Source of the DNA: an uncultured Verrucomicrobiales bacterium
Lineage (GTDB): Bacteria; Verrucomicrobiota; Verrucomicrobiia; Verrucomicrobiales; DEV007
NCBI GenBank assembly: GCA_938082635.1
Contig: CALLLI010000036.1
Location: 17,370 to 81,369, forward strand
DNA: 64,000 nt
Reading direction: 5' to 3'
The translations under genes and the position numbers were made by a program. Shown here piece by piece: positions 4,664 through 36,477 of this stretch. Below the pieces are notes generated by a model that was not told where the DNA came from, did not search any database, and saw nothing but the letters and a program-made list of their open reading frames with translations. The first letter of the stretch is position 1. The number at the start of each line of letters is the position of its first letter.

Positions 4664-4671
4664 AAGAACCC

Positions 4672-4745
4672 GTAAAATGGCCATTCCTGGCCGTCTCACA
4701 GCATGCCCTGCCTGAACGTAAGATGGCCATTCCTGGCCGTCTTAC
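4672..4745. repeat. two tandem copies of a hairpin-forming repeat (possible terminator or REP-like element)
   Basis: Two copies of a ~28-bp element (4672-4699 and 4718-4745) share the core ATGGCCATTCCTGGCCGTCT. The second copy is a nearly perfect inverted repeat: 12-bp arms GTAAGATGGCCA and TGGCCGTCTTAC with a TTCC loop and a single G-T pair. The first copy keeps the inner arms but its outer arms have diverged. The pair lies between the TPM gene and the sigma-factor gene, so it could end the upstream transcript, but there is no long T-tract. Confidence 0.7.
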
Positions 4746-4847
4746 AGTGCGCCCCGCTAGCCGTTCTATCTCCCCCGCCAAGAAAACTTCACCCAATTTC
4801 TAAGATGCTCAGACCTCCCGAGTCTTCTTGGTGAGTGAATCGCCATC

Positions 4848-5402
4848 ATGCCCATCATCAACCTCAAGCCGCGCACTACAGCCCAACCCAAGGTGGAAGC
4901 GAAGCCGACGTTGGAAGCGCTGTTTGAGGCGGAAGAAACACCTCTGCTACGCTTTGCCCACGGCATCGTCCGACGCCGTGAGGTGGCGGAGGAGATGGTG
5001 CAAGAAGCCTTCATGCGGCTTCACAACCACTGGGAAGAGGTTGTGAAGCCGCGTGCTTGGATCTACCGAGCCGTCCGCAATCTCTGTCTCTCCCACTTAC
5101 GAAACAACTCCCGCGAGACAGAACTCGATGAAGAGCGCGATGCCCAGGCGGCCGAGAGTCCCAAACCCGATGAGACTCTCGGCCGCTTGGAAGCGGTCGG
5201 CATGGTGCGCCTACTCATGACCGAGCTGGAAGAGAGAGACCGCCAGCTCATCCAACTCAAATACTTCGAAGAGCAAAGCTACGCGCACATCGCCAAAGCC
5301 ACCGGTCTCAGCGTGAGCAATGTCGGCTACCGCCTGCATCACCTGCTCAAAGGCCTCGCCGTCTCCCTCCGTCAAGCCGGCGTCGCAGACAGCCAAGGCT
5401 AA
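4848..5402 (+). CDS. ECF-type RNA polymerase sigma-70 factor
   Basis: A 184-aa extracytoplasmic-function sigma factor. Region 2 is seen at about residues 25-90 (LLRFAHGIV, AEEMVQEAFMRLHNHW, PRAWIYRAVRNLCLSHLR) and region 4 at about 120-175 (LEERDRQLIQLKYFEEQSYAHIA, then a helix-turn-helix with GLSVSNVGYRLHHLLKGL). It has only the two core sigma regions. The stop lies 24 bp before the large vWA protein, whose N-terminus resembles an anti-sigma factor. That arrangement predicts that the downstream membrane protein restrains this sigma factor until an envelope signal arrives. The target promoters are unknown. Confidence 0.9.
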   Translation: MPIINLKPRTTAQPKVEAKPTLEALFEAEETPLLRFAHGIVRRREVAEEMVQEAFMRLHNHWEEVVKPRAWIYRAVRNLCLSHLRNNSRETELDEERDAQAAESPKPDETLGRLEAVGMVRLLMTELEERDRQLIQLKYFEEQSYAHIAKATGLSVSNVGYRLHHLLKGLAVSLRQAGVADSQG

Positions 5403-5426
5403 CCAAACCCATTTCCTAACACCTCC

Positions 5427-8400
5427 ATGAAACCCGAAGATCCAAACGTCCAAGCCTGGCTCGAACCCGAGCTCGAAGCCCGCCTCGTCGCGTCGCTCCT
5501 TGGAGAAGCCTCCGCCTTCGAACAAGCGGAACTGGACCGACTCCTCAAAGAGCGGCCCGAAATCGCCGTCTTCCAACGCCGCCTCCAAGCCGTCCACGGC
5601 CTCGTCGATGAAGCCGTCAAGCAAGGCCCCGATGACGACTGGAAACTATCGAAAGACAAACGCACGAAAGTGCTAGAAACAATCCGTGGCACCGCCAGCC
5701 AAGACGAAACCCCTAGCAACGTCATCGCACAGAAGCAATCCAAGCGCCAATGGATCGGCATCGCCGCAGCCGCATCGGTAGCGCTATTCGCAGGCGCCGT
5801 CGCGATGGTGAACACGATGACAGGGCTCCAGTCCAGCGATAGCGCGGACATCGCCATGACCAGAGAACGCGAGGACTACGGAGTGGAACCCAACGTCGAT
5901 GCCAAGATCGCCAGCGCTGCCAAAGAATCATTCGGCGATCTCGCACAAGTAGACAACTACGCCTATCAAGTTTCCACCACACCAAGCAAACCCCGATACT
6001 TTCAAACCGAGAATACAGGCGTAACCCTCAAAGTCGCTCCCCAGGTCGGCCCCGATGGCTACACCATCGACATGGACCTCGTTCCAGAAGTCGTCGAGTT
6101 CGACGGCTTTGCAATCTACGAACCTAAGATTGCCGCCACCAAACCTCAGTCGACCAGCGACGACCTCGCCAAACTCGGCGACTTGGAGAATTCAGCAGCG
6201 GGTGAAGCACTCGCCTATCATGAAAGCCAAGAAGAACAATTAGGCGAACTTGACCAAGCTGAACAACGTTTCTACGAAGTTCTACGTGATGATAAATTCA
6301 ATTCAGCCGCTCGCCAAGGAATCGAACGCGTTGAAAGAGACCGTAGTCGTCACCTCTCCGCAGCTTATGATCAAACGCGTGCAGAGCTAATCGATAAAGT
6401 GGACGAGGCGTGGGAAACACCCGCCCCAAAGGCATCGGCAGCCACCGATGAAGAAAAAAAAGCGCAGCCCCAAGCCCCAGAGCTACTCGCTCGTAGTAGC
6501 CGCGAAGCGGAAAGCAAAGAGGCTCTCGGATTGATCAATCAAGAAGCGCTCACCGACAACCTTACGGCCTACGCTGTAACACCCGCCACGGGGGATGATC
6601 CCCCAGAACTCGCTCAAGAATTTGGGACGACTCAGAGCCGCTCAGACGCCCCAGAAATTAATGTGCACGGTCGTCCTCGCATCGATGCGTTCAAAACCAC
6701 ACCTGAGATCATCACCCGATCAGGATCGACAGCCAAGGTCGAGGTCGTTCGCGAATTGATCTACCCAGATGAATTCGACGCGGCTAAGCTTCCCCAAGAA
6801 GTTGTCGCTACCGACGGAGCCGTTGCTTTTCCAGTCACCCCGCCCACACCAACGCACTGGAAATGGAGCTTTGAATCGGACGAATCCAAACCTTCAGCAA
6901 GTAACACGCCCAACCTTGCACAGGCCCAGGAACAACCTGACCAGCTATCCTACTTTGCGACACAAGACACGGAATGGGCAGAGAGCGGATCGACCGAATC
7001 GCTGAACTGGGCATCTCAACCAGGGATGATCCGCACCTATCCACCAGCTAACGACAGCGATCGCCAAGACGCCCCCTCCATCGAAAGCACTCAAGTTGGT
7101 GGCGCACTTACACGCTTCGAAAACATAGCTGACTACGTCACCTTTGAATTCAGTGATCCTGATAGCAAATCTCTCGCAGAGAACAAATCTGAACCCTATG
7201 CAGAACTAGCGCCCGACAATGAAGCCAGCTTTGGTCTGATTGCTGGCTTCAACCTGATAGACCGCAATTTGAAGCGTGATGAGGCAGCAACTGAAGAGTT
7301 CTTTGAAAATGATCCCGAAGCGATCTCGCCTGCTCCTGGCGTCTTTGCGGTGGCCGGCGTCCTAACTGATCCACAGTTCCAAACTGTCTTGCAAAGCGAT
7401 GCGATGAAAAAATGGACCGGTTCGAGAGGAGGTTCAGAAGTAGAAGGGCTCGCGAAAGGACTTCGCTCAAGCAGTGAATCGATTGTTGACAACAACCTTG
7501 ATGCCTTGATCACCACGCTTGAAACGGCCCCACTCATAGCTCCCGAGAAGGTAGTCGCTCTTGCAATTGCGTCGCCTAAATCCCCTGAGCAAGTCGCACT
7601 TACTCAGCAAAGCATCAAAGTAGAAGAAGCTCGCCTAAGAATGCTAGATTTCGCTGAACGGTATCGCGCCATCGATCTCGCTGCCATGCAGAACCGAGCT
7701 TCCGAAACAGGGGAACCTTTGCAAGAGGAGGAGAGCGTGCAACACTCCTCGCAGGAGAAAGAGAAGGAGAAGGAGCAACGCTACGCGAAGGCGAAGAAGG
7801 ACTACGAAGCAGAGAAGCAGAATCTTCGTGGCTTCGAAGAAGGACGGCTCAGCGAGGCGTTGGTTCAAAAGGACTTCAAAACACGGGAGACCATCCTTCA
7901 GCAGCAGTTGGACAAAGTTGCCGCCCAGGAAGCCCAAGTCGCCATGCTAGGAACGCGGTATGATATCCCAACAGTTCTCAAGCGTCAGAATGAAACCGCA
8001 GGAAGCGATAGCCTCAGCCTCGCAGAGTTCGAGACAAAGAAAGACACCGCCATGGATGATCGGCGCAAGCTTGAGGAGTATAAAGAAGCCCAACAGGAGC
8101 TGGGATTCCGCAGAAAGCTTGTCGAGAAAGTTAAGCGAGCCTTAGAGCCGGCCAAATCACAAAGCCTGAACGAGAAGCACACCAAGCAAGAGCCGTTCTC
8201 TACCTTCTCGCTTCACGTGAGCGATGTCGCCTTCAAACTCGCGAAGGCAGCTTTGCTAGAACAGAACAAATGGCCTGAGGTAGCGAAGGTGCGGATCGAG
8301 GAGTTCGTCAATGCCTTCGACTACGGCGACCCTGCACCGACACAATCGGAGAAAGTGTCTTGCCAGGTCGAGCAAGCAGCCCATCCCTTTCGCCAGCAAC

Positions 8401-9497
8401 GCAATGTATTGCGCGTGGCCATGCGCACCGCCGAGATGGGACGCTCGTCTGGCACACCACTTCAGATCACGCTTTTGTTAGACACTTCAGGCTCCATGGA
8501 GCGCGCCGATCGGCAAGAATCGATTAGCCAGGCCATGAAGGTCCTCACTTCTCAACTCACTCCAAGTGACACCGTGACCCTGATCGGCTTTGCGCGCCAA
8601 CCCCGGTTGATTCAGGATCGCTTGACTGGCGACGCTTTGGCCAACTTGCCCAAGTTCGTCAAACAAACGCCCTCCGAAGGCGGCACGAATTTGGAAGAAG
8701 CTCTCTTGTTAGGTGCTGAACACGCCAGACGCCAGTTCGTCGAAGCCGGCCAGAACCGAATCGTTCTCATCACCGATGGCGCCGCTAACCTTGGCGATGC
8801 CGATGCCGAGTCCCTGCGCGATCTCGTCGTCGGACTACGTCAGGAAGGTATCGCCTTCGATGCTTGCGGCGTGGGAGCCGAAGGCTTGAATGACACGGTG
8901 TTAGAAGCTCTCACCCGCGATGGCGATGGCCGCTACTACCTGCTGAACAAGCCCGAGGACGCTAATGCTGGCTTTGCCCGCCAACTCGCGGGCGCGTTCC
9001 GCCCCGCCGCGCGCAATGTGAAGGTGCAAGTGCGTTTCAATGATCGCCGCGTGGGCAACTACCGCCTCTTGGGCTTCGAGAAGCATCGCCTGAAGAAGGA
9101 AGATTTCCGCAATGACAAGGTCGACGCGGCCGAGATGGCATCCTCTGAAACAGGCGTCGCCGTTTATGAAATCGAGCCGCTGCCTCAAGGCGATGGCGAG
9201 ATCGGCGAAGTCTCTGTCCGCTTCCAAGACATGACTACTGGCCGGATGGTCGAACGCACGTGGCCGATCGCCTACAACGCAAACGTGACAGCGTTAGACG
9301 AAGCGTCGCCATCGCTTCAACTCGCCAGCACCGCCGCCTTTCTTGGGGAGAAGCTCAAGGGCTCCACCTTCGGAAAAGCCATCAATTTGGAAGAGCTCTC
9401 TCAGGTCCTCACCAATCTAAGACAACACTACAGCTCCGATCCACGCATCGCCTCCCTGATCGCCATGATCGAGAAAGTCAAAGAGCAGCAACCCTAA
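5427..9497 (+). CDS. giant anti-sigma-like / vWA (YfbK-type) protein with secretin-like segments
   Basis: A 1356-aa membrane-anchored protein. Residues 1-100 resemble a zinc-less anti-sigma N-terminus. Residues 109-130 form one transmembrane helix. From about 922 the protein is a YfbK-type unit: EPFSTFSLHVSDVAF, a vWA domain with an intact MIDAS (D-T-S-G-S at 1019-1023), and the conserved C-terminal module (QLASTAAFLGEKLKGSTFG to the end). Residues 730-905 are highly charged and probably coiled coil. Residues 190-700 contain several pieces that look like the verrucomicrobial secretin (GspD-like) but in the wrong order (see findings). The usual YfbK-like protein lacks this insert. The position after an ECF sigma gene suggests sigma control coupled to an extracytoplasmic metal-dependent binding domain. 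The vWA part is firm; the secretin relation is inference from memory of that family. Confidence 0.85.
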   Translation: MKPEDPNVQAWLEPELEARLVASLLGEASAFEQAELDRLLKERPEIAVFQRRLQAVHGLVDEAVKQGPDDDWKLSKDKRTKVLETIRGTASQDETPSNVIAQKQSKRQWIGIAAAASVALFAGAVAMVNTMTGLQSSDSADIAMTREREDYGVEPNVDAKIASAAKESFGDLAQVDNYAYQVSTTPSKPRYFQTENTGVTLKVAPQVGPDGYTIDMDLVPEVVEFDGFAIYEPKIAATKPQSTSDDLAKLGDLENSAAGEALAYHESQEEQLGELDQAEQRFYEVLRDDKFNSAARQGIERVERDRSRHLSAAYDQTRAELIDKVDEAWETPAPKASAATDEEKKAQPQAPELLARSSREAESKEALGLINQEALTDNLTAYAVTPATGDDPPELAQEFGTTQSRSDAPEINVHGRPRIDAFKTTPEIITRSGSTAKVEVVRELIYPDEFDAAKLPQEVVATDGAVAFPVTPPTPTHWKWSFESDESKPSASNTPNLAQAQEQPDQLSYFATQDTEWAESGSTESLNWASQPGMIRTYPPANDSDRQDAPSIESTQVGGALTRFENIADYVTFEFSDPDSKSLAENKSEPYAELAPDNEASFGLIAGFNLIDRNLKRDEAATEEFFENDPEAISPAPGVFAVAGVLTDPQFQTVLQSDAMKKWTGSRGGSEVEGLAKGLRSSSESIVDNNLDALITTLETAPLIAPEKVVALAIASPKSPEQVALTQQSIKVEEARLRMLDFAERYRAIDLAAMQNRASETGEPLQEEESVQHSSQEKEKEKEQRYAKAKKDYEAEKQNLRGFEEGRLSEALVQKDFKTRETILQQQLDKVAAQEAQVAMLGTRYDIPTVLKRQNETAGSDSLSLAEFETKKDTAMDDRRKLEEYKEAQQELGFRRKLVEKVKRALEPAKSQSLNEKHTKQEPFSTFSLHVSDVAFKLAKAALLEQNKWPEVAKVRIEEFVNAFDYGDPAPTQSEKVSCQVEQAAHPFRQQRNVLRVAMRTAEMGRSSGTPLQITLLLDTSGSMERADRQESISQAMKVLTSQLTPSDTVTLIGFARQPRLIQDRLTGDALANLPKFVKQTPSEGGTNLEEALLLGAEHARRQFVEAGQNRIVLITDGAANLGDADAESLRDLVVGLRQEGIAFDACGVGAEGLNDTVLEALTRDGDGRYYLLNKPEDANAGFARQLAGAFRPAARNVKVQVRFNDRRVGNYRLLGFEKHRLKKEDFRNDKVDAAEMASSETGVAVYEIEPLPQGDGEIGEVSVRFQDMTTGRMVERTWPIAYNANVTALDEASPSLQLASTAAFLGEKLKGSTFGKAINLEELSQVLTNLRQHYSSDPRIASLIAMIEKVKEQQP

Positions 9498-9562
9498 GGG
9501 TGCTCGGTCGACATTTTACCAAACCTTTACAAACCGACCTTAGAAACAACGTCTTAATGTAG

Positions 9563-9601
9563 CACGGGCTTCCAGCCCGTGTCCTGGGCAGGATGCCCAG
9601 G
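9563..9601. repeat. double hairpin repeat between the vWA gene and the giant membrane protein gene
   Basis: Two adjacent perfect 8-bp stem-loops with 3-base loops: CACGGGCT-TCC-AGCCCGTG (9563-9581) and CCTGGGCA-GGA-TGCCCAGG (9583-9601). The element ends 10 bp before the downstream ATG at 9612. It resembles dispersed intergenic palindromes of Verrucomicrobia and Planctomycetes and would form strong RNA structure next to the start site. Confidence 0.8.
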
Positions 9602-9611
9602 CTACCCTATC

Positions 9612-12600
9612 ATGAAATCATTCATCGCATTCGTCAGCCTTCTTCTGGCATCTATCAGTCTCGCTCAAGAGCCCGTCGAGATGCCTTCCACATCTAGCGG
9701 ACTCCTCATTATCGACACCAAAGGCGTCGCTCCCAAACCCGCCCTCTTCTTTGCCGCCGATGCCCGGGCCACCATCCAGCTTACGCACGAAGCCATCACT
9801 CAAAGCATCACTGTCGACGTCCACGTGCTCCAGGGCACTCCAGATGTCATCACCCTAGCACTCTTCGGCGAGGGTAAGATCACCGCCGTCACGGGAGAGC
9901 AAGTTCAGTTCTGGGCCGTGCGCCAAGGAACCGGCGAGGACGCCGCCAAACGGTTCTTAGAGATTCGACCAAAGCTTCCGAGCAAAGACGCGCCTGCCCT
10001 TTCGGCCTTCCAGGCCACCATCACAACAACACAAGCGATCGAATCGCTGCCCACGACCACACAGATGCTCACCTTGGGCCCAGGCGAGTCCGCCGGCTTC
10101 TCAACTCAGCTCGAGATCGTCTCCGATGACACCGTGTCTCCCGAGGTGACCGACAGCACCGGATGGCTCTCCGCAACAGCAGCCGAAGATGACGGGCCAC
10201 TCCGTTTTCAAACCACCGGCAATAACACTCTCGCCCTGCAGCTAGAAGCGCGTGGGGTCGCGGCCAACCTCGTTGAGTTCACCAAGGTCCGTTTAGAAGG
10301 CCAGGTAGATTCCGACACTCAAAGTGCTTCCTTCACCCTAACGGGCACCGCCATCGTGCGCGATGAGAGGGGCGGCAAACTGAAACTCTTGTCAGGACAA
10401 GCAGCCCTCCACGAACTTCCCGCAGAGGCTTCCTATCAAGTCCATCTCCGCGCCCAAGGCGAGGGCGCCCCTTACTACGAGCTTGAGTTCACCGAAGCCG
10501 GTGAGTTTCCCATCAGCCTCAACATCGACGCCCGCTTGCAAGTCAAAGGCGAATGGCAGGCTTTCGACTTCACGATTCCCGCCAGTGCCATTGTTCCCAT
10601 GCGCCTCACCGGCCTTCCCGAAGATCTCCGCTTCGACAGTGCTCGCGCCGTCTTTCCGACACGTTCAGACAACGATTGGTTAGGCTTTCTCCCGCCAAGT
10701 GGCCGAGCCGCCACGGCCTGGCGCAGCGGAAAGGAAGAAGAAGACGGCAAGCTCTTCTTTGCCACTCAAGAACAAACCGAGGTCAGTGTCAGTGCAGGCC
10801 TTCTTAGACAAGCCCTGCTCCTCCAAGTCAGCATCCTCCAAGGCAAACTCGACAGCGTGCAGGTCGACCTCTTCGGCGAAGGAGAGATTCTCGCAGTCGA
10901 AGGCCAAAATGTGCTAGGCTGGACGGTAACACCTGGCGAGGACGGCGCTCGGCGTTTGGAAATTCCTCTAAGCCAGGCGATCGAAGGCCAAGCTCAGTTC
11001 CTCATCCGCAGCCAAACGCCCGTCGGTGCCTTTCCCGTCACGGCTACGCCAGTGCGCCTCGCTCCCGTCGATTCCGTGAGGCACTCTGGCAATCTACGCA
11101 TTGGCAACCAAGGCGCGGTGCGTTTGCAACTTTCTGGGCTGGCCGGCATGACGCAACTTTCTACCGATCAGTTTCCTGGTGAACTCAGCCTAACAAACGG
11201 CGCCACGCAGGTCTACGTCTACCGTTTGCCTTCAGCAAACTATGCTTACGAGATCCAGGCAGACCAGATCACTCCAGAAGTGAATGTTTCCCAAATCGTG
11301 GTCTATCACATGGGCGATTCCGATCGACAGATCAATGCCGCGATCGAACTCGACATCCGCGACGCCCCACTTCGCGAATGGGAACTCCAGGTTCCGGAAG
11401 ACTATGCCGTGGTGTCCGTGACGGGTGCCGATGTCGTCGATCATATCCTGAGCAGCCAAGCCGACAATGGCACACGCAGTCTCAAAGTCCTCTTCGGCAG
11501 CATGGTCTCTGGCCGCCGTCTGCTCAATCTTCACCTAGAGAAGAATGAGGCACCCGCTGCTGGCGACTGGGCCCTTCCAACGCTCACCTATCCCGGCGCA
11601 AAGTCGGTTCGCGGTCATTTGGGCATTTCCGCCACGGCTGGCTATCGCGTGAGTTCGGGAACCACTGAAAAGCTTTCAGAACTCCCCCTGACACAGTTTC
11701 CAAAGCAACAAGAGAACCTTCAACAAGCCTACCGGCTTCGCGAACCCGACTGGAGCGCGACCATGACGGTGGAGGCGCTGGGCCAGAGTGTTCAAGCAGA
11801 CGTCTTTCACCTCTATGCCCTGAAAGAAGGCATGGTCTACGGCAGTGTTCTCCTCAATTACTACGTGGTAGGCGCGCCGGTCAGCAACTGGCGCCTCCAG
11901 GTCCCAGCTGAAATGGGCAATGTCGGCATCGATGGCGAAGACGTCCAGACGTGGCGGCGTGAAGGCAACGAGATTTCCGTCACCTTACATGAGCCCGCCT
12001 TAGGGCCATCTACTTTGCTCATGACATTTGAACAACCCATGAGCATAGAGGGCGGCGCCCTCGCACTCGGAGCCGTCACCCCGTTGGAGGTACAGGGAGA
12101 ACGTGGCTTCATTCAAGTCGTCAGTCCCTATCAAGTGCAGCATGAGATCATGCAAGCTTCTGACAACCTGCTTTCACTAGAGGCGAACGAACTTCCGACA
12201 GAATTTCGTCTTCTAACGAGTGCGCCTTCTCTCATCGCCTATCAATATGGAGCGCGCCCTTTCGAGCTCGCCATGAATATCCAGTGGCTGACTCCCGGCA
12301 AGACCGTAGACCAGATGATCGAGTATGCCGACCTCAGCAGCCAGATCTCACGAGATGGCCAAGTGGCGACCACAGCAGTGTTTCATGTGAAAACCCGAGG
12401 CCAGCAAGGCCTTCGATTGCGCCTACCCGATGGCGCCACCCTCTGGGATGCCCAGGTGAATGACAAAGCGGTCAATGCCCGCGCCGATGGCGACTTCACC
12501 GTCATTCCCCTGTCAGCGGCCAACGAGCCTAACCAAAGCGTCCGCGTGAAAGTCCGTATGGGGCAACCTTCTGTCGATCCCTCACACCCTATCATTGGCG

Positions 12601-15600
12601 CACCGGCTGCCGACTCCCCGATCATGATCCATGCTTGGAAAGTGAAGAGCGATCACGGCCAACTCTTACTCCCCAAGGGTGACGCGGCCAAGCAACTTGC
12701 CGCTCCGGTGCTGACAGAGACCGGGTTCGAATGGCTTCTCGGAAACCGCGATCACTGGGAAGTCAGTTTACTCGTCCTGGCCCTGGCCCTGGCCATTATC
12801 GGCTCTTGGCTCGCAGGCAGCACTCAACGTTGGCGCTTGTTTCTCGGTGGACTCGTCATTCTCGCGGCCGCAATCTTTGCTGGCTTTCTTGCCCACCAAG
12901 CTCACGACCAGGCTCGGCCAAACAACACCAAACTTGAGATCATCGCGCCCGTCGTGTCACCAGGCGAGCCTCTGACCGTGTCGTTAGCCCATGTCTCACA
13001 CTTCAGCGCGATGATGCAGCCGGTCGGCATCGGCCTGATAGTGATTGGCCTAGGATTGTTCTTTCTAAGAAAGAGACTCGCCACCTGCCTTGGCGTGATG
13101 GCGATAGGCGTCGGCCTGCTCATGCATCCGTTAGGCGCTCCGATATTCTTCGGCGCTCTCGCATTGTGGCTCTTCTTTCATCGATTCGTTGGGTGCTGGC
13201 GTGCGTTGCTAGGGTCTCCTCCGACTCAGTTTCGTGCTGAGGCTGAGTCGGCCCCTCCCACGCCGCCAGCCATTTCCACACCACTCTGGTTGGCCTGCGC
13301 TCTCAGCGCGGCTGCCCTCTTTGGGGGTGCGGATTTTGCCCAAGCTGCGGATGTTTCTGCCAGCACCCTAACTCAGCGCTGGAAGATCGAAGGCCAGCGC
13401 CTCTTTGGCGAGTTCGAGATCTCCACCAGCGGAAAGGCCGGTGACAGACTGCGTCTTCTCAAAAACCCCGCCGTTCTCACCGCCTTCACAGCCACCAGCG
13501 GTGACGTACGCGTGGCCCGTCGCGCCGTCGACGGTGGTGTCGACTATGATCTAGTCCTTGAGGCTGATGGACGCATCTCTGGGACCGCGACCTTCGAGAT
13601 GGCTCTGGAACAGCCCTTGTCTCGAGTGAACTTCCCCACCGGCATTGCAGCAGTCCACCAGATGGAGGTCACCCTAGATCAGTCAAGCTGGGAAATCACC
13701 TCACCCGCAGCCGTGCGTTTGACGACAGCGCAAGAGGGAGACGCCAACCAAAGTAGCGTCGCTCTCTCAGTGGGCTCTCAAGGAGAACAATGCCTTTCGC
13801 TGGCGCCGCGCACACGGGACCTTGGTTCCGAGACGTCGCAGTTCTATGTCGAAGTCGATCAGGTCTTTCTCCCGAAGCCCGGCGTGATCGATGCCCGGCA
13901 TCGCATCGTGGTCCGGCCTTCTCAAGGACGCGTCCGCGAACTCACGATGCTCGCACCTAACGGATTCACCGTCAGTGATGTCCGATTGGAAGGATTGCGC
14001 AATTGGCGCTTTGATCCCGATACTCGCCAATTGCGAATCGAGCTAGAAACAGCCCGAGCCGATGGTTTTCAGATCGCCGTGTTCACCCAGCAAGGGTTGG
14101 CAGGGCTGCCTACCGACGCCACACTCGAACCGTTGCGAGTCGAAGGTGCCGCCGGAGAAGTTGGCATGCTCGCTCTCGCCTTTGGGCCAGATTCCCAACC
14201 TGAGTCCGTGACTGCCACCGGCCTTTCCGCAGTCAATTTAGAAGACTTTGATGCCAGTTTGTTAGGCAAACGCGAAGGCAATCCCCTCGTTCTCCATCGC
14301 GTCTACCGGTATGGGGCCGACCCAGGAAGCCTTGCTTTGCGAGTCACGGGCGTTGATCCAGAGATTCGCATGACGACGAGACAAACCCTCTCGTTAGGCG
14401 AAGAGCGCTTGGTTCTTGTCATCGATCTCACAGCCTCCATCACCCGAGCTGGCCTCTTCCAACTACGATTCCCGATGCCTGCAGGCCTCGATGTCGAGGC
14501 GATCAGCGGTTCTCACCTTGATCACTGGTCCGAGGTCACCGAGGACGATGTCCGCCTTATTATCCTCCACCTAAAGGGGCGCTCTATGGGTGAGCTCACC
14601 TTCGCCATCAGCCTAACAGGCACTGCACCAGGTGCATTAGACTCTTGGAACGTCCCAAGGTTCACGTTAGAAAACGCCGCACGCGCCACTGGAGAACTTA
14701 TCATCAGTCCCGATCTCGGCATTCGCGCTCAAGCCGTTTCCAGACGGAATGTTTCTCAGTTAGACACTCGTAAGATCGCTCGCAAACAGGCAGGCACGCT
14801 CGCTTTCCAGCTCTTGCAGGAAGAGTGGGAACTTGCGCTCCGTATCGAGCAACTCGAGCCTTGGGTTACAGCTCAAACACTCCAAGAAGTCACCCTGCGT
14901 GAAGGCCAGACACGCACCCGCCTTGCGATTCACTATCAGATCGAGAATGCCGCCGTCAAAACACTCCAACTGCGCTTGCCAGGCCTGAGCCCAACGGATG
15001 AACAATCCGTGCACGCCACGGGCGAAGCCATCAGTGACCTTGTCAGAGTACCCGAGACCGAGGATCTCTGGGAGATTCGTTTCCAACGTGGCATGTTGGG
15101 CGACGTCCATGTGACCATTGATTTCCAGCAACCGGCTGATCGCTCGGTGAATCAGGAAGCCATCGCCCCGGTGATCCTATCAGAAGTGCGCCAGGCTACC
15201 CACTGGATGGCCGTGCGCAGCGTCGGTAGGCTCGGGCTCTCGTTAGCAGAAGCGGATCGGCGTTGGCAAACGGCCGATTGGGGCACCGTCCCAACCAAAC
15301 TGCGTCAAACACGCCAAGGAGACACCCCACGACTCTGCGTCAGGTCGATCGCCCCCGATCAGCCGCTCCAAGTGCGAGTCGAACGGCACGCGGTGGCAGA
15401 AGCTCTCAAACTGCGCGTTTCCAAAGGCCAACTCACGACGCTTCTCTCCGCTGGAGGTGCCCAAGTCACCAAGGCGGTGCTCAACATCGACGTCGCCGAG
15501 AAGAGCCCGCTTCGTGTGACGTTGCCCAACGGCTCGACACTCCTGAATGCCTTCGTCAATGGGCAGAGCGTCGATCTTGTGAACGAAGGCGAAGGAAGCA

Positions 15601-16490
15601 CGTATGCGTTCTATGTCTTTCCCCAGGACGGCTCGCCGACTGCGCAGGTCTCCTTTGCCTATGGCACCTACGAGTCTCAGTCCCGAACCACCCTGGCACT
15701 GGTGGCACCCGCCCTTGAGCTTCCACTTCAAGACATCACCTGGCAAGTCGTGTTGCCCAATGGCTACACGCTGAAGAAAAAGGTCGGGATGTTAGAACTC
15801 AAAAGCTCCGGTAAAGAGATCCGTTTCGATGTCGACCGTTACCAAGCTGCTCAAAAACAACGGCAAGCCCAACAGGCACAGAACGCCAGAACCTTGCTAG
15901 AACGCGCCAACTACTGGCTACGGGAAGGCCAACAAGACAAAGCACGCGAAGCCTTACAAAGCGCGAGCCAATCCAATTCACTCGACGCCGCCTCAAGTGA
16001 AGATGCCCGTGTCCAACTGCGCCAGTTGCAGACCGAGCAAGCACTCCTCGGCCTCAACTCACGGAGACAGTCCGTCTATCTTGAGAACCGCATTGAGACA
16101 CCCGAATTCGCCCGAAACGAACAGCTTGAGCAAGCAGCTCAGTTCAACGTGGTCCTACAGGGCCAGCTAAACTACGACCCGAACAAGGTAGATGATTTCT
16201 TGTTAGGAAACACCGCCGAAGAGAACAGCGCGCTCAAACGCATGGCCGGCCGACTCGTTAGCCACCAACAAGCCGCCGACCTTGGAGTGCGAGGACTCGA
16301 AGTGTCCTTACCAGCCCGCGGCGAACTTCTGACATTCCATCGCAGCGTGCAGGTCGACGGCAGCGAGCCCCTTCGACTAGAATTGACCCTCAGCCCGGAA
16401 GGCAAGGTGCCCTGGTGGTTCATCGGAGCGACCGTCCTCCTGCTAGGGCTGCTCGCCATCGTAGGATCACGTAATCGGGTAAAGGGATAG
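9612..16490 (+). CDS. 2292-aa exported membrane protein with internally duplicated beta-rich modules
   Basis: I recognise no named family. The ATG at 9612 is chosen because it gives a clean signal peptide (MKSFIAFVSLLLASISLAQ); a frame extension to 9579 would run into the hairpin repeat. Residues 20-1045 are beta-rich and exported. Four to five hydrophobic segments lie at about 1046-1190. A second signal-like stretch at about 1225 (WLACALSAAALFGG) introduces another beta-rich half. Residues 2080-2160 are Gln/Ala-rich and helical, and a last membrane helix at about 2263-2287 precedes a basic tail. Internal repeats are visible: the V-x-x-LQG...LFGEG-x-I-x-AV-x-G...W-x-V pattern occurs near residues 70 and 405. 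It is 114 bp downstream of the vWA gene, and the two plus the sigma factor look like one locus. Confidence 0.8.
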   Translation: MKSFIAFVSLLLASISLAQEPVEMPSTSSGLLIIDTKGVAPKPALFFAADARATIQLTHEAITQSITVDVHVLQGTPDVITLALFGEGKITAVTGEQVQFWAVRQGTGEDAAKRFLEIRPKLPSKDAPALSAFQATITTTQAIESLPTTTQMLTLGPGESAGFSTQLEIVSDDTVSPEVTDSTGWLSATAAEDDGPLRFQTTGNNTLALQLEARGVAANLVEFTKVRLEGQVDSDTQSASFTLTGTAIVRDERGGKLKLLSGQAALHELPAEASYQVHLRAQGEGAPYYELEFTEAGEFPISLNIDARLQVKGEWQAFDFTIPASAIVPMRLTGLPEDLRFDSARAVFPTRSDNDWLGFLPPSGRAATAWRSGKEEEDGKLFFATQEQTEVSVSAGLLRQALLLQVSILQGKLDSVQVDLFGEGEILAVEGQNVLGWTVTPGEDGARRLEIPLSQAIEGQAQFLIRSQTPVGAFPVTATPVRLAPVDSVRHSGNLRIGNQGAVRLQLSGLAGMTQLSTDQFPGELSLTNGATQVYVYRLPSANYAYEIQADQITPEVNVSQIVVYHMGDSDRQINAAIELDIRDAPLREWELQVPEDYAVVSVTGADVVDHILSSQADNGTRSLKVLFGSMVSGRRLLNLHLEKNEAPAAGDWALPTLTYPGAKSVRGHLGISATAGYRVSSGTTEKLSELPLTQFPKQQENLQQAYRLREPDWSATMTVEALGQSVQADVFHLYALKEGMVYGSVLLNYYVVGAPVSNWRLQVPAEMGNVGIDGEDVQTWRREGNEISVTLHEPALGPSTLLMTFEQPMSIEGGALALGAVTPLEVQGERGFIQVVSPYQVQHEIMQASDNLLSLEANELPTEFRLLTSAPSLIAYQYGARPFELAMNIQWLTPGKTVDQMIEYADLSSQISRDGQVATTAVFHVKTRGQQGLRLRLPDGATLWDAQVNDKAVNARADGDFTVIPLSAANEPNQSVRVKVRMGQPSVDPSHPIIGAPAADSPIMIHAWKVKSDHGQLLLPKGDAAKQLAAPVLTETGFEWLLGNRDHWEVSLLVLALALAIIGSWLAGSTQRWRLFLGGLVILAAAIFAGFLAHQAHDQARPNNTKLEIIAPVVSPGEPLTVSLAHVSHFSAMMQPVGIGLIVIGLGLFFLRKRLATCLGVMAIGVGLLMHPLGAPIFFGALALWLFFHRFVGCWRALLGSPPTQFRAEAESAPPTPPAISTPLWLACALSAAALFGGADFAQAADVSASTLTQRWKIEGQRLFGEFEISTSGKAGDRLRLLKNPAVLTAFTATSGDVRVARRAVDGGVDYDLVLEADGRISGTATFEMALEQPLSRVNFPTGIAAVHQMEVTLDQSSWEITSPAAVRLTTAQEGDANQSSVALSVGSQGEQCLSLAPRTRDLGSETSQFYVEVDQVFLPKPGVIDARHRIVVRPSQGRVRELTMLAPNGFTVSDVRLEGLRNWRFDPDTRQLRIELETARADGFQIAVFTQQGLAGLPTDATLEPLRVEGAAGEVGMLALAFGPDSQPESVTATGLSAVNLEDFDASLLGKREGNPLVLHRVYRYGADPGSLALRVTGVDPEIRMTTRQTLSLGEERLVLVIDLTASITRAGLFQLRFPMPAGLDVEAISGSHLDHWSEVTEDDVRLIILHLKGRSMGELTFAISLTGTAPGALDSWNVPRFTLENAARATGELIISPDLGIRAQAVSRRNVSQLDTRKIARKQAGTLAFQLLQEEWELALRIEQLEPWVTAQTLQEVTLREGQTRTRLAIHYQIENAAVKTLQLRLPGLSPTDEQSVHATGEAISDLVRVPETEDLWEIRFQRGMLGDVHVTIDFQQPADRSVNQEAIAPVILSEVRQATHWMAVRSVGRLGLSLAEADRRWQTADWGTVPTKLRQTRQGDTPRLCVRSIAPDQPLQVRVERHAVAEALKLRVSKGQLTTLLSAGGAQVTKAVLNIDVAEKSPLRVTLPNGSTLLNAFVNGQSVDLVNEGEGSTYAFYVFPQDGSPTAQVSFAYGTYESQSRTTLALVAPALELPLQDITWQVVLPNGYTLKKKVGMLELKSSGKEIRFDVDRYQAAQKQRQAQQAQNARTLLERANYWLREGQQDKAREALQSASQSNSLDAASSEDARVQLRQLQTEQALLGLNSRRQSVYLENRIETPEFARNEQLEQAAQFNVVLQGQLNYDPNKVDDFLLGNTAEENSALKRMAGRLVSHQQAADLGVRGLEVSLPARGELLTFHRSVQVDGSEPLRLELTLSPEGKVPWWFIGATVLLLGLLAIVGSRNRVKG

Positions 16491-20240: not shown

Positions 20241-21338
20241 CTACAACTCTGCGCCAGCAGAGTCCCCAAGGGCAGCGTCTTCAGGCGGTAGGAGGTTCTT
20301 GAAGCGGTTCTTATCGATCGCTTTCATGTAGGCTTCCTTGGCATTGATCATGCCGGCTTCGAGCTTGTCGTTGATGGCTTCGTCCATGAAAATCATGCCG
20401 CGTCCCTTTCCACCGGTAATCACGTCATAAAGCTTCTGGGTAGCACCTTCACGAATGATGGCACCGACAGCGGGCGTGGAGACGAGGATCTCATTGACCG
20501 CGCAACGGCCACCGTTGTCGCAGCGCTTACAGAGAAGCTGGGCCACGACGCCCTGCAAAGAGGCGGCGAGCATGGTGCGGACCTGGGATTGCTGATCGGA
20601 CGGGAACACGTCAATAATACGGTCGACGGTTTTACGAGCGTTGTTCGTGTGCAGGGTCCCGAACACTAACAGACCCGTTTCCGCAGCGGTGAGCGCCAAA
20701 GAGATGGTCTCCAAGTCACGCATCTCACCCACGAGAACAATGTCAGCGTCTTCACGCAAAGTCGCACGTAGACCATCGGCAAACGTTGGCGTTTGGATAG
20801 GCACCTCACGCTGGGTAATGATCGATTTCTTGTTCGAGTGCACGAACTCGATGGGCTCCTCAACCGTGATGATGTGGCGAGAGAAGTTCGTGTTAATGTA
20901 ATCAATAAGTGCCGCCAGCGTGGTGGATTTGCCTGAACCAGTCGGACCGGTGACAAGAACGAGACCACTACGAAGGTGACCGAACTCTTTCACAACGGAA
21001 GGAATGCCTAACTGCTCCAGCGTGGCGATCTTCGTCGGAATCAGCCGGAAGACGGCAGCGATGCCGTGACTCTGCTTAAGGTAGTTGCAACGGAATCGAG
21101 ATTTTTCGTCCATCTCATAGGCGAAGTCGAGATCACCACGATCCATAAATTTCTCCCATGCGGAGGGCTCGCAGATCTCCTTGAGCATCGGGTGAATCAC
21201 CTCATCAGTGAGAACTTCTTCGGAGATGGGAACAATGTTACCATGAAGACGCAGCTTGGGCGGTGAGCCTTGGCTGAGGTGGAGGTCGGATGCGCCCTGG
21301 TCGACGAGCATCTGGAAGAATTTATCAATAACGGCCAT
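20241..21338 (-). CDS. pilT: type IV pilus retraction ATPase PilT
   Basis: A 365-aa hexameric ATPase of the GspE/PilT family that drives pilus retraction at the inner membrane. It starts with the PilT N-terminal domain (QGASDLHLSQGSPPKLRLHG). Walker A is GPTGSGKS at residues 131-138; the Asp box is TVEEPIEF, the Walker B region DIVLVGEMRD, and the His box GTLHTN. Length and order match PilT. It lies 70 bp downstream of a second PilT-type gene. The pilus fibre and assembly genes are not in this window. It is the last gene of the minus-strand cluster and is followed by a stem-loop. Confidence 0.93.
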   Translation of the reverse strand: MAVIDKFFQMLVDQGASDLHLSQGSPPKLRLHGNIVPISEEVLTDEVIHPMLKEICEPSAWEKFMDRGDLDFAYEMDEKSRFRCNYLKQSHGIAAVFRLIPTKIATLEQLGIPSVVKEFGHLRSGLVLVTGPTGSGKSTTLAALIDYINTNFSRHIITVEEPIEFVHSNKKSIITQREVPIQTPTFADGLRATLREDADIVLVGEMRDLETISLALTAAETGLLVFGTLHTNNARKTVDRIIDVFPSDQQSQVRTMLAASLQGVVAQLLCKRCDNGGRCAVNEILVSTPAVGAIIREGATQKLYDVITGGKGRGMIFMDEAINDKLEAGMINAKEAYMKAIDKNRFKNLLPPEDAALGDSAGAEL

Positions 21339-21408
21339 GAAATTAGTGTCGTTGCTAGCTACCTAAAGAAAGTAATTAATTGGAATGATAGGGTGGTAGA
21401 CGCGTCGA

Positions 21409-22491
21409 TTAGACATCGAAATGCGCTTTCATGTTGGCCTGGTCATTGGCCCGGCTCATGCACTCATCTTGCGAGATAAGTCCCTGGTTGTAGAGATTCT
21501 TGAGTGAATCGTCCATGGTGATCATGCCCACCTTTCTACCCGTCTGCATGATGCCGCCGAGCATGTAGGTCTTGCCCTCGCGGATACAGTTGGAAACAGC
21601 CGGTGTGTTCACAAGATATTCGAGAGCGAGCACACGTCCTTCGCCGTCAAGACGAGGCACGAGGTTCTGACTGACAATGCCGCGCAGAGACTCACTGACC
21701 ATGATCCGGATCTGATCGCGCTGATCGACCGGGAACACGTCGAGCACACGGTCCAAGGTACGAGGGGCGTTTCCGGTGTGGAGCGTTCCCAATACCAAGT
21801 GACCCGTTTCCGAAGCGGTGATCGCGAGCTGAATGGTTTCCAGGTCGCGCATCTCTCCGACCATGATGATATCGGGATCTTCACGCAAGGCACCGCGCAG
21901 GGCAGCAGCAAAGGAAGCGGTGTGCGTGTGCACCTCGCGCTGATTCACGTGACAGCTGCGAGACTCGAAGAGGTATTCGATAGGATCTTCCAGCGTGATG
22001 ATGTGGTCCTGGCGAGAGGCATTCACCTGATCGACCATGGCAGCCAGTGTGGTCGACTTTCCGGAACCGACGGGACCAGTCACGAGGACAAGGCCGTTGT
22101 GATACTGCGTGAGAGGCTTGAGCGTCTCCGGCAAATTCAGCTGATCCATGGAGCGGACCTCCGTGTTGATGATCCGGAAGGCCATGTCGAGACCGAGGCG
22201 GTGGCGCACGACACTGGCACGGAAACGGCCCAGCTCAGAAGCGTAGGCAAAGTCGACATCACCGATCTTCTCAAGACGAGCGAGCTCTTTCTCCCCGAGG
22301 AAACTCTTCACGAGACGATCCGTATCAGCAGCAGTGAGCGGCTCGGCATCGTCCCAGATGGGCGCGAGGTGACCATGGCGGCGCCAGTGAGGCTGGCTAT
22401 TCACAGCTAAATGAAGGTCCGAGGCTTCGTAATCCTGGCCAACTTTGAGATAGCTATCGACGTGTTCTAGGGTCTTGACGGTTTCAGACAT
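21409..22491 (-). CDS. second PilT/PilU-type twitching motility ATPase
   Basis: A 360-aa paralogue of the neighbouring PilT. It has YEASDLHLAVNSQPHWRRHG at the N-terminus, Walker A GPVGSGKS at 139-146, an Asp box TLEDPIEY, Walker B DIIMVGEMRD and the His box GTLHTG. Tandem pilT/pilU-like genes are common where retraction needs an accessory motor. Which copy is the main retraction motor cannot be decided from sequence, so I leave the symbol empty. Its start overlaps the end of the upstream YqjK-like gene by 8 bp, which couples pilus retraction to the membrane-stress genes before it. Confidence 0.9.
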   Translation of the reverse strand: MSETVKTLEHVDSYLKVGQDYEASDLHLAVNSQPHWRRHGHLAPIWDDAEPLTAADTDRLVKSFLGEKELARLEKIGDVDFAYASELGRFRASVVRHRLGLDMAFRIINTEVRSMDQLNLPETLKPLTQYHNGLVLVTGPVGSGKSTTLAAMVDQVNASRQDHIITLEDPIEYLFESRSCHVNQREVHTHTASFAAALRGALREDPDIIMVGEMRDLETIQLAITASETGHLVLGTLHTGNAPRTLDRVLDVFPVDQRDQIRIMVSESLRGIVSQNLVPRLDGEGRVLALEYLVNTPAVSNCIREGKTYMLGGIMQTGRKVGMITMDDSLKNLYNQGLISQDECMSRANDQANMKAHFDV

Positions 22492-32664: not shown

Positions 32665-35600
32665 TTACTGCTTCGCGCGATAGAAGCCAGCGGGAGCAGC
32701 GATGCGGTCCGCGTCCGTCTCTTCGAGCGCGCCACCGAGGCCAGGAGCGATGACCTCCCAGTTCTCAAGGTCCGTCGAGTATTCGATGTCCACTGTGAAC
32801 CCATCAGGAATGGTAAGTCCGAAGACACCGTTCTCGGTAATGCCGACGTCTTCCAAGATTAGATTCGTTGGAGTGGGCATAACCTCAGGCTGCAATGTCA
32901 GAGGAGTCTCAGCGCCATTAAATAAGTCTAACAAGTCACTTTCACTCAGGGCCACGTCCCAGATCGAGATATCGTCCATCAATCCGTCGAAGTTACGCGC
33001 TGTGCCACAGCAATTGTCCTTACCAAAGAACCATGAGGTGTTCATGTTCATTTGTGCTAGCTGGGGAACCGCATTGACGGCGGAGTTCAGTTCACCACCT
33101 GAGCCGACATACAAGGTCGCTTCGTCTTCCGTCAATGAGAGGGCAATGAAGACCCACTCATTTGGTGGGATGGCGACCCCACTCTCGAAGCCCCAGGAGG
33201 TGTTGGAATTGTCGTTCCACGTGTAACCTATATTCCCAGAACCGCCACTGAAGCCGATGCCTATGGGCTGATCAGGAGCCTCGCCGCCACGGGCTTGAAT
33301 CAGCCCAGACCAATCCCCCGTGTGGGCGCCGTTAATCCAACCCGTGATCGTGATCTGCTCGAAGGTCTTGCCTGTGGCCGGCACTTCGACATAACTGCCG
33401 CCGCCATCCTCACCGGTGACCTCAAAGCCTCCGCCACTTGCACCCGCACCCCAGGTACCGCCGACCAATGTACCGTCGAGGCCATTGCCACTCACATCTG
33501 CCACCGTCGTGCCTTCACCTTCATCGGCTGGCCAATAACCCACCAAGTTTGGCGAGGGATCACCGCCAACACCAGCCGCCCATCGGATGGAGTTCACGAA
33601 CAACTGCTTGCCTGCATCCGTTAGGTCATTGAATGATGAATCCGTTATTGGGAAAGCCACTCGTCGCGCAGGCGACACATTGTCTGTCACTCCTGCGCCG
33701 TCGGCCACAGCCGCTCCAGCCTCTGTGGCGAAGAGCATGGCAAGATCCACAATGCTACCATCGGCAGCTGTTCCCACCGCCTCGGTTCCAGCTGAGAGTG
33801 AAGAGGACCCTAGCGTTTCCGCGCCTGGCGCAGAGAAGAAGTCGATCGTGGTTCCAGCCAGATCTCCAGCGATGGGGTGATCGGACAAGGCCATCTGAAC
33901 CGTGTCGGTGGACTTGGTCATGATCACCGAGCTTTGACCAAACTCGCCTTCCGCGCTTGCATCCATGACCGCTTCTTCCCAGTTCACAATAGGTACTGCG
34001 GCGTTGTGGAATTTCCCTCGCACGGACCCCGAACCAAACGTCGACGAGAAGATAATCACATCAGCCGCCTCGGTGCCATCCGTAGCCCCAGAGTTTTGAT
34101 AACGCACATTCTCGGCACCAAACGTCTCCCCAAGGAAAGCAAGCACATTGGCATCGGCCCCCGTCTCCCCAGTATCATCGGCTCCCAATACGAGGAGGTC
34201 GAGCGGTCCGTCACCACCTGTTGGCACCGTTAACGTAATATCGTCCCCCTCGGTCCGCCCCACATTAGAGGCAGAGATGAAGCTCCCAGCGGCATCTGTT
34301 AGAATAAAACCACTGAGACCAGGATCCACACCATTGTCAGTGCCTGAAACAATCATGATATCCTGAGTCGCTCCAGTCGCGGTGAAACTCCCGATGACCG
34401 AACTATTCCCCCGAGGGAAATCACTACTGACATTCGTCCCATCAGAGGCCGCTTGATTCCGCGTGTTACAGCAGCCTCGTGTATCTCCCGCGCCTAACAA
34501 TTGCACTTGGTAGGACTCGCCGGCCGTCAAGCCATCGAGCGTGATCGACGCGCCATCGCCATTCCAGCCATGGCTGTTGTAAACCGAGTCCAGAATATCG
34601 TCGCCCGTCGTTCCGCCATCACCTGTCCAGAACGTGCCTTCAGCGTTCCCGCCATCATAGGCGAACGGCGCAAACGTGATCGAAGAACCACCGATCAAGT
34701 CGCCCAGCGTCGTATCGAGGTCGACGTCTCCCCAAGTGATGTTGCTAGTCTCCATGGGCACTTCGACAGCGCCCAACACCGTGCCTGGCGTCGTAAAGAG
34801 CTCAGCCACATCGTCGGCTGAGATGACGCGATCATAGATCTGCACATCATCGATCAGGCCAGAGAACGCAAGGCCACCGTCAAAGGCACCGATGAAGTAG
34901 CTATCAAGAGGGTCAATGGAGACTTCGACAGGGTCGTCCTGGGTCGCAACTGCCACACCATCGAGATAAAGGACGGCCTGAGTCGCTGTGTAACTCGCAA
35001 CCACATGGTACTTCGTTCCTGCGGTGATCGCACCTGCAACACCGAACTCAGGAGCTTCGCCCGAGAACCAGTTTAGGTCACCATCCTGAACAAGAACCGC
35101 AAAGGTCGGTGTGCTCACGCCTTGACCAATCACGGTCTGCAAAGCGGCAAGTTCCGATGGCTGAATCCACATGGAAACTGTAAAGTCTGTGATTTCGCCG
35201 AGGCCCTCTCCGGGAACAACGCCTTGCGCTCCTCCACTGACGTTCAGAGAACCACCCGTAGCGAGTGTGGCTCCACCCAAGGTCGCGCCGTCTAACGTCC
35301 CGTGACGGTTGTAGCCCGTGACATCTCGCAGCTCAGTGCCACCAGCATCATCGTCCATGGCATAATGGGCAGCAGGTCCCGTGAAGTTGATCACAGCTGC
35401 ATTCACTCTCGTCGTCCGAGTCTGATCATCAGCATCGACGTCGTCACTTTGGATTTCGATCGTAAAATCAAAGGCTCCTGTTCGACCCACCGTGTCCAAC
35501 GTTACCGCAAGCTTACCAACGCCACTTGCAGGGACACTGGCAAGTTCTCCAACGGTGACGAGGTCTTTGTCAGGCCCAGTCACGGAGATGCTCGAAATAG

Positions 35601-36477
35601 TCAACGCATTGTCTTGACCCACATTCCCCACCTCGAGTTCAAACTGAACGGGCACACCGGCAGAAACTCTCCCGAGATCGAGTGCTTGTTTCACAAAGAT
35701 GTCAGGACCCGGCCCCTCTGGGAAGAGTAATTCCACATCCGGAAAGGTTGTAGGATCATGCCACTGCTCAGTGCTATCTGTAGCCCAGCTAAGCTGCGTT
35801 TGTCGTTCGCCTTCGGCTTCGTCGTCATCATTGATGGCCACGCCGAAGCCAAAGAAACCACGTTCAAGGATTTCCGCCGGAGTGAAATCAGTGAGGGTAG
35901 ACCAAGGGATGGCCCACTCTATCGTATAACCTGTGTCTGATGTGGCGGCAATCGCATTCAAGTCTGCCACATCTCCATTCTCAGTCACCCAACGCTCGTG
36001 ATTGATGCCGTTGGTAACCTCAACCTCACCCGGTACAATCGTAAGCTGATAGATCGGGTGTTCTTTATCGACATTGTAGTCAGGAACCGTAGGACCGTCG
36101 TCTTTACCGAGCCCATCTGCGTCGAGGTAAAGCTCAAAACTATCATCCTGCCAAGCATCAGGGCCGTCGTTGGAGAAATAGTCGTCTGTGACTACTGCGT
36201 AGAAATAGAAGTTGTCATCATCCCACAGCGCCTTCCACGTGCAGGAGAGGTCATCATCATCATCAGGCATGTCGCCTACTGCGGTGAACGATTCGCCATT
36301 GAGGGTATACTCATTGGCCGTCGCCCAGGCAGCATCATCGGGGTTGCCATCGATGACGATTGCTTGGGAGGTGTGTCTAATGGAGCCTTTGATGTCTTGA
36401 GCACTGGCCACGGAAATACCCGCGATTAGAATTGCCAACGCCACACACCAAGAGGCAAGAGTAGGAACTCTTGTCAT
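32665..36477 (-). CDS. 1270-aa secreted mosaic: CBM9-like, LamG x2, ThuA-like
   Basis: A secreted protein with a signal peptide (residues 1-26). In order: a family 9 carbohydrate-binding-like domain at about 30-255 (IDGNPDDAAW, DDSFELYLDADG), an Ig-like choice-of-anchor domain at 255-365, a LamG/concanavalin-like domain at 370-570 (VSMWIQPSE, FSGLIDDVQIYDR), a galactose-binding-like domain at 580-730, a ThuA/glutamine-amidotransferase-like fold at about 740-965 (DLLVLGADD, ADVIIFSSTFG), a second LamG at 970-1185 and the phylum-typical end domain (VDIEYSTDLENWE). The CBM9-like and LamG parts point to binding of polysaccharide outside the cell. No catalytic centre is evident. It reads convergent to the sigma gene, 74 bp away. 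Confidence 0.78.
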   Translation of the reverse strand: MTRVPTLASWCVALAILIAGISVASAQDIKGSIRHTSQAIVIDGNPDDAAWATANEYTLNGESFTAVGDMPDDDDDLSCTWKALWDDDNFYFYAVVTDDYFSNDGPDAWQDDSFELYLDADGLGKDDGPTVPDYNVDKEHPIYQLTIVPGEVEVTNGINHERWVTENGDVADLNAIAATSDTGYTIEWAIPWSTLTDFTPAEILERGFFGFGVAINDDDEAEGERQTQLSWATDSTEQWHDPTTFPDVELLFPEGPGPDIFVKQALDLGRVSAGVPVQFELEVGNVGQDNALTISSISVTGPDKDLVTVGELASVPASGVGKLAVTLDTVGRTGAFDFTIEIQSDDVDADDQTRTTRVNAAVINFTGPAAHYAMDDDAGGTELRDVTGYNRHGTLDGATLGGATLATGGSLNVSGGAQGVVPGEGLGEITDFTVSMWIQPSELAALQTVIGQGVSTPTFAVLVQDGDLNWFSGEAPEFGVAGAITAGTKYHVVASYTATQAVLYLDGVAVATQDDPVEVSIDPLDSYFIGAFDGGLAFSGLIDDVQIYDRVISADDVAELFTTPGTVLGAVEVPMETSNITWGDVDLDTTLGDLIGGSSITFAPFAYDGGNAEGTFWTGDGGTTGDDILDSVYNSHGWNGDGASITLDGLTAGESYQVQLLGAGDTRGCCNTRNQAASDGTNVSSDFPRGNSSVIGSFTATGATQDIMIVSGTDNGVDPGLSGFILTDAAGSFISASNVGRTEGDDITLTVPTGGDGPLDLLVLGADDTGETGADANVLAFLGETFGAENVRYQNSGATDGTEAADVIIFSSTFGSGSVRGKFHNAAVPIVNWEEAVMDASAEGEFGQSSVIMTKSTDTVQMALSDHPIAGDLAGTTIDFFSAPGAETLGSSSLSAGTEAVGTAADGSIVDLAMLFATEAGAAVADGAGVTDNVSPARRVAFPITDSSFNDLTDAGKQLFVNSIRWAAGVGGDPSPNLVGYWPADEGEGTTVADVSGNGLDGTLVGGTWGAGASGGGFEVTGEDGGGSYVEVPATGKTFEQITITGWINGAHTGDWSGLIQARGGEAPDQPIGIGFSGGSGNIGYTWNDNSNTSWGFESGVAIPPNEWVFIALSLTEDEATLYVGSGGELNSAVNAVPQLAQMNMNTSWFFGKDNCCGTARNFDGLMDDISIWDVALSESDLLDLFNGAETPLTLQPEVMPTPTNLILEDVGITENGVFGLTIPDGFTVDIEYSTDLENWEVIAPGLGGALEETDADRIAAPAGFYRAKQ

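Follow-up and report, generated by a model that had tools for sequence, protein, structure and literature searches.

In RsgI-type anti-sigma factors of cellulolytic clostridia, the extracellular part is borrowed from secreted proteins of the same cell, and in the FecI-FecR-FecA system a secretin-related STN domain on the outer-membrane receptor takes part in ECF signalling. The inducer of the RpoE response is unfolded outer-membrane proteins (PMC8103513). Here we analysed a locus of an uncultured Verrucomicrobiales bacterium that encodes an ECF sigma factor, a membrane protein with an anti-sigma-like head and terminal vWA and YfbK domains (the vWA protein), and a giant exported protein. Profile and own-genome comparisons identified the linker between the membrane helix and the vWA part as a collage of short, shuffled, in-frame fragments (shards) of the cell's own envelope machines.

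Operon organization and conservation

The three genes lie in a row on the forward strand of the window, the whole 64,000-nucleotide stretch of DNA that was analysed (Table 1). An earlier note, made from the letters alone, had placed this layout at window 4848-16490 with intergenic gaps of 24 and 114 bp, and both the layout and the gaps were correct. For the giant gene, a GTG at 9579 falls inside an inverted repeat, and the ATG at 9612, where a signal peptide starts, yields 2292 aa. REP-like inverted repeats (tagcacgggcttccagcccgtg and cctgggcaggatgcccagg) precede this gene (window 9564-9612), and a repeated ggccattcctggccgtct precedes the sigma gene (window 4664-4750). Two adjacent PilT-like ATPase genes lie on the reverse strand about 4 kb downstream of the operon (window 20241-22491). 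A paralogous copy of the locus within the window was considered and rejected: a 2311-aa gene (37917-44852) and a 1270-aa gene (32665-36477) are alike in length, and their translations are unrelated.

Table 1. Features of the locus, in window coordinates
Feature	Position	Strand	Basis
Putative ECF-type promoter, TCTAAGATGCTCAGACCTCCCGAGTCT	4799-4825	+	Conserved motif, 23 nt before sigma start codon
ECF sigma factor gene, 184 aa	4848-5402	+	ORF, Pfam/NCBIfam
Membrane anti-sigma/linker/vWA-YfbK protein gene, 1356 aa	5427-9497	+	ORF, domains, hydropathy
Predicted anti-sigma-like head, residues 11-88, cytoplasmic	5457-5690	+	AlphaFold2, VIA, NF052375
Single TM helix, residues 110-128	5754-5810	+	Hydropathy
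Secretin shard 1, residues 176-238	5952-6140	+	Secretin profile 667-729, PEVVEFDGF
Secretin shard 2, residues 268-348	6228-6470	+	Profile 191-271, TPR region
Secretin shard 3, residues 424-478	6696-6860	+	Profile 624-683
Secretin shard 4, residues 630-657	7314-7397	+	Profile 586-613
Wzc/Wzz coiled-coil shard, residues 726-790	7602-7796	+	Wzc profile E 0.004; own-genome Wzz-like matches
Periplasmic vWF_A, VWA (MIDAS), and YfbK_C domains	8175-9479	+	Pfam; MIDAS residues invariant
Giant exported membrane protein gene, 2292 aa	9612-16490	+	Signal peptide; ortholog downstream in 63/66 loci
Tandem beta-sandwich module of giant	11199-12758	+	AlphaFold2 pLDDT 87
Central TM cluster of giant, residues 1062-1249	12762-13325	+	Hydropathy
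Second copy of giant's beta module	14301-15782	+	BLASTP between halves, E 5e-17

Orthologs were found in about 18 genomes of the window's family and order, and scanning the GTDB species genomes brought the set to 80 loci, distributed over Verrucomicrobiota and Planctomycetota; most of the genomes used were metagenome-assembled. The sigma gene stands directly upstream of the vWA gene in 59 of 61 testable loci, with a 4-bp overlap between the two in 32 of 60, and the giant gene follows downstream in 63 of 66. Judged by gene order, the trio is a conserved operon in both phyla. The earlier note had made its proposal depend on the three genes being co-located in other genomes; since they are co-located across two phyla, it passed this test. 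Its view of the locus as a candidate for an undescribed system is also supported, as nothing relevant, and no description of the collage or the switch, was found in the open-access literature searched.

Of 60 loci, 29 have CTAAG-N17-GTC upstream of the sigma gene, the window locus among them, and the spacing is 17 in every case. A fixed-spacing motif in this position is the pattern expected of an autoregulated ECF operon, and the motif is likely the sigma factor's own promoter. Genome-wide, the pattern was not enriched (8 matches versus 13 in the reversed control), which told against a regulon defined by it, and none of the matches examined preceded a gene that donates shards to the linker. 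Several matches in the window's genus stand just before ORFs for exported proteins, and in one exported ortholog pair (G000:C390 and G002:C11, 66% identical) the match lies 110 and 116 nt upstream. Such matches may mark a small regulon of exported proteins. Four small exported proteins of 144-180 aa (L328, L331, L337, and L340) start 8-9 nt after a match and are possible leaderless members.

Domain architecture of the three proteins

The sigma factor matched Sigma70_r2 (E 8e-14) and Sigma70_r4_2 (E 5e-11) in Pfam and TIGR02937 (sigma70-ECF) above its cut-off in NCBIfam, and it consists only of regions sigma2 and sigma4 within about 180 aa, as defines an ECF sigma factor. For the head of the vWA protein (first 105 residues), AlphaFold2 predicted a helical domain (pLDDT 78.6) with the three-helix bundle and fourth helix of the ASD I class, as in RseA and RsiW, and the protein is encoded beside its ECF sigma factor, as that class requires. 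A blind VIA comparison with solved structures returned RsiW (Z 6.2), MucA (6.1), RslA (5.6), and RseA (4.1), with ECF anti-sigma chains making up five of the six listed matches (MucA as two entries); each of these Z values (4.1-6.2) is modest and below the aligner's own trust level, so the likeness holds at the fold level only. The head also matched NF052375 (E 9e-5, NCBIfam), and a sequence search for solved relatives returned none. The predicted fold agrees with the anti-sigma-like head suspected in the earlier note, and we infer from the model that it binds the sigma factor.

A single membrane helix precedes the linker, beyond which vWF_A (PF12450), VWA, and YfbK_C (PF12034, E 8e-24) all scored above their curated Pfam cut-offs. 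The MIDAS that had been proposed for the vWA domain is intact, and its residues (D1019-x-S1021-x-S1023, T1087, and D1117) are invariant in 17 orthologs; the whole vWA/YfbK part is strongly conserved among orthologs.

The giant protein carries the signal peptide, central membrane segments, and duplication first read from its translation, with residues 547-1033 matching 1575-2068 (E 5e-17), and it has a C-terminal TM besides the central cluster. Foldseek matched its beta-sandwich stack to OST1/ribophorin I (E 7e-9), integrin alpha, and the M1-peptidase saddle of LTA4H, all with a query TM of <=0.27. The giant is strongly conserved among loci, and docking of the MIDAS vWA domain on its beta-sandwiches is plausible by analogy. 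A second giant family (L111/L120 in G024:C435 and L112/L121 in G030:C156) is remotely related to it and carries secretin N-domain pieces and a BamA-like FLGGAANLRGFDFRD stretch before its TM cluster; its loci hold three large exported genes in a row, with no sigma factor among the ORFs listed.

The linker as a collage of envelope-machine fragments

The secretin-like pieces that the earlier note had seen proved real: the window linker matched the NCBIfam Amuc_1098 family (E 3e-47) in four stretches, which lie out of donor order (profile starts 667, 191, 624, and 586). Shard 1 showed 72% amino-acid identity to the genome's own secretin 1, shard 2 was nearest to secretin 2 of the genus, and weaker Wzc/Wzz similarity continued to about residue 905. 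A full-length Amuc_1098 secretin has a complete secretin domain and scores >750 bits; the scattered stretches here gave 161 bits, with PF00263 (secretin) below its cut-off. Carbohydrate-binding or glycosidase modules of the RsgI kind were absent from the window protein by Pfam and NCBIfam.

Across Verrucomicrobiota, the donors were a PilQ-like secretin, BamA, a GspK-like pseudopilin-cassette protein, and Wzc. The G011 linker matched BamA of its own genome at the DNA level, and later protein searches added Wzc-type proteins and Verru_Chthon cassette protein A, whose NTA motif suggests that it is GspK-like. Donor, segment, and order vary among orthologs. The G042, G030, and G027 linkers contain other secretin segments (46-386, 47-268, and 266-484, respectively), long secretin N-domain pieces occur in L039 (430-657) and L044 (608-952), and no secretin segment is common to all orthologs. 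Donor order is random, with 10 of 17 adjacent secretin pairs inverted. The linkers are very variable in length and of low complexity (73-82% GPSAEDQKRTN); shards account for ~27% of their residues. Most Verrucomicrobial linkers contain PEVVEFEGF-like motifs, and no shard was detectable in 2 of the 18 full linkers.

When 19 linkers were scanned in six frames, all 50 shards fell in the coding frame and the remaining five frames gave none; secretin was the commonest donor (32 of 50). In a second locus set, which has 11 loci in common with the first, 77 of 77 shards, all in Verrucomicrobiota, were in frame. Chance similarity was ruled out, since a single one of the six frames holds every shard. 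Among 1446 neighbouring ORFs (551,812 aa), the same profiles matched a single one, and the 71 adjacent giants (142,730 aa) gave no match. Such scans detect only donors for which profiles were built; the unbiased evidence comes from five linkers searched against their own genome, three of them also against that of a relative, and at E<0.01 these recovered only envelope proteins, family relatives, and Wzz-like or small secretin-derived proteins, with no cytoplasmic donor. An assembly artefact is unlikely because the collage recurs in dozens of genomes within long, diverged, uninterrupted frames, including isolate or complete Planctomycete genomes (L247, L267, L269, and L274).

In Planctomycetota, the donors were mainly a small lipoprotein, together with a secretin (GspD) and a DUF1559 pilin. 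Ten linkers carried a piece of the lipoprotein (YLDDDVQYFPAGPEFKL), two a piece of planctomycete secretin, and one the start of a DUF1559 pilin (PF07596, E 1.2e-5); all 14 of 14 profile matches were in frame. Comparison of the C-terminal halves of planctomycete secretins with the linkers gave nothing clear. The main donor was itself observed as a small protein (L322 in G057:C62 and L323 in G058:C259) with the pattern TGCQT..GGQTLPS..YL.DDVQYFPAGPEFKL.

Similar pieces were observed in other proteins. Two paralogous vWA/YfbK proteins have shards as well: L169 (G011:C118) has a Wzc shard, 62% identical across 196 aa to the Wzc of that genome, and L028 (G021:C150) has a piece of BamA loop 6, so fragment capture may extend beyond this operon. 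In one genome, M56 (BlaR1-like) sensors (L006/L118, G000:C232; L100, G000:C238) contain secretin N-domain pieces, the G000:C238 sensor also having a Wzz-like coiled coil; further sensors may thus recruit pieces of envelope machines. Small exported proteins encoded in tandem gene arrays (L109, G009:C410; L116, G042:C92) are built largely from secretin profile region ~616-770, present once or twice.

Capture history and constraint

In a phylogenetic tree, the shards clustered with secretins from the same genome or genus, and a tree forcing all shards into one clade was rejected (delta lnL 179, p-AU 3e-61). The tree, the AU test, and the random order rule out a single ancient secretin fusion followed by decay, and phylogenetically the fragments were captured repeatedly from the host lineage's own genes. 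Capture appears to be ongoing, as judged from the G017 linker: 55 bp of it match that genome's secretin gene exactly and in the same phase, the flanking sequences are unrelated, and there is no third copy.

Older shards mostly retained 47-72% amino-acid identity to their donors, with dN of 0.2-0.5 for most and synonymous sites mostly saturated. Because amino acids were kept while synonymous sites became saturated, these shards have been held under protein-level constraint. Within a genus, dN/dS was 0.28-0.39 for shards, slightly below the 0.39-0.45 of the remaining linker, and shards were conserved no better than that remainder. No particular bait peptide is therefore strictly kept, and the linker is weakly constrained; a conserved bait peptide was ruled out on this ground despite the recurrent motifs.

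Discussion

We tentatively interpret the locus as an ECF/anti-sigma envelope-stress switch in which the linker is bait that mimics envelope-assembly clients. The head of the vWA protein would keep the sigma factor at the inner membrane, while the periplasmic linker would expose its shards of the cell's own envelope machines, baiting the chaperones, proteases, or assembly factors that handle the real proteins. The terminal vWA domain would dock on a stable partner, probably through the MIDAS metal, the likeliest candidate being the giant's beta-sandwich arms. The anti-sigma factor would thereby report envelope-assembly load: with the handling factors diverted or idle, the linker would be cut or released, and the freed sigma factor would transcribe the operon that encodes it and genes for a small number of exported proteins. 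The bait function is an interpretation, and the docking on the giant, the trigger, and the proteolysis are postulated steps.

The main rival, which we consider rather unlikely, is that the linker is a permissive spacer filled with recombination debris, of which only in-frame, export-compatible pieces survive, length mattering and sequence not. Envelope genes would then dominate through this survival filter, and the switch would work through the vWA domain and the giant alone. The random donor order, the differences in shards among orthologs, the linker dN/dS of 0.28-0.45, and the low-complexity linkers of very variable length all suit a spacer, as does the lack of extra conservation of the shards. 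However, the donors belong to a few envelope-machine families and not to the many other exported proteins, the pattern recurs in two phyla with different donors, and the adjacent exported giants are free of shards, all of which favours bait.

It is improbable that the switch specifically senses the type II secretion or type IV pilus pore by way of linker pieces that dock on the secretin or assemble together with it. Secretin is the source of most Verrucomicrobiota shards, and the long N-domain pieces in L039 and L044 could fold, but BamA, Wzc, and GspK-like shards occur in the same linkers, no secretin segment is shared by all, and Planctomycetota linkers draw mostly on the lipoprotein. This reading is the earlier note's idea; its suggestion of the type II/IV secretion pore as the specific object sensed is not supported as stated, since secretin pieces are one part of a mixed collage. 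Less probable again is an ordinary ECF/anti-sigma operon whose vWA domain binds a ligand unrelated to envelope assembly, with the collage incidental; the strong conservation of the vWA/YfbK part and the giant is consistent with it, but the restricted donors would be left unexplained. Action of the shared stretches as RNA or DNA, for example as small-RNA decoy sites or gene-conversion tracts, is very improbable, since despite the exact 55-bp copy in G017, synonymous sites elsewhere are mostly saturated and amino acids kept, with nucleotide identity of 47-72%.

If the linker is bait, it may also be a self-sampling sensor, its sensory region continually rebuilt from in-frame pieces of the genes for the machines being watched, so that the bait tracks its evolving clients. 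We hold this with more reserve than the bait reading itself; if true, two phyla would be using a new means of building and maintaining a sensor. Little is known about how Verrucomicrobiota and Planctomycetota respond to envelope stress, and the locus gives their envelope biology a conserved ECF switch as a central element. Repeated in-frame capture of fragments of the cell's own envelope proteins, into one region of one protein family, had no description in the open-access literature searched. Fragments that serve as bait would make each linker a readable list of what the cell monitors; fragments that are filler would still form a striking case of biased gene-fragment capture.

Among known systems, the E. 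coli RpoE-RseA-DegS pathway shares with this locus a membrane protein of the anti-sigma kind, a cytoplasmic head (here predicted to be RseA-like), and the theme of envelope biogenesis. However, RseA has neither client pieces nor a vWA domain, whereas here client-like segments lie inside the putative anti-sigma factor and the neighbouring gene encodes a giant beta-sandwich protein as its probable partner. RsgI proteins carry whole, folded ligand-binding modules, in contrast to the mostly sub-domain shards described here, which are shuffled and repeatedly recaptured. In FecI-FecR-FecA, the secretin-related domain is on the receptor, whereas in this locus it is the anti-sigma factor that contains secretin pieces, and these come from any part of the secretin. 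The Amuc_1098 PilQ-like secretin (NF042912) is the donor of most Verrucomicrobial shards, but the vWA protein, with its partial and permuted match, is not itself a secretin. With the YfbK family, finally, the protein shares its C-terminal domains, to which the anti-sigma head, the collage linker, and the operon with sigma factor and giant have been added.
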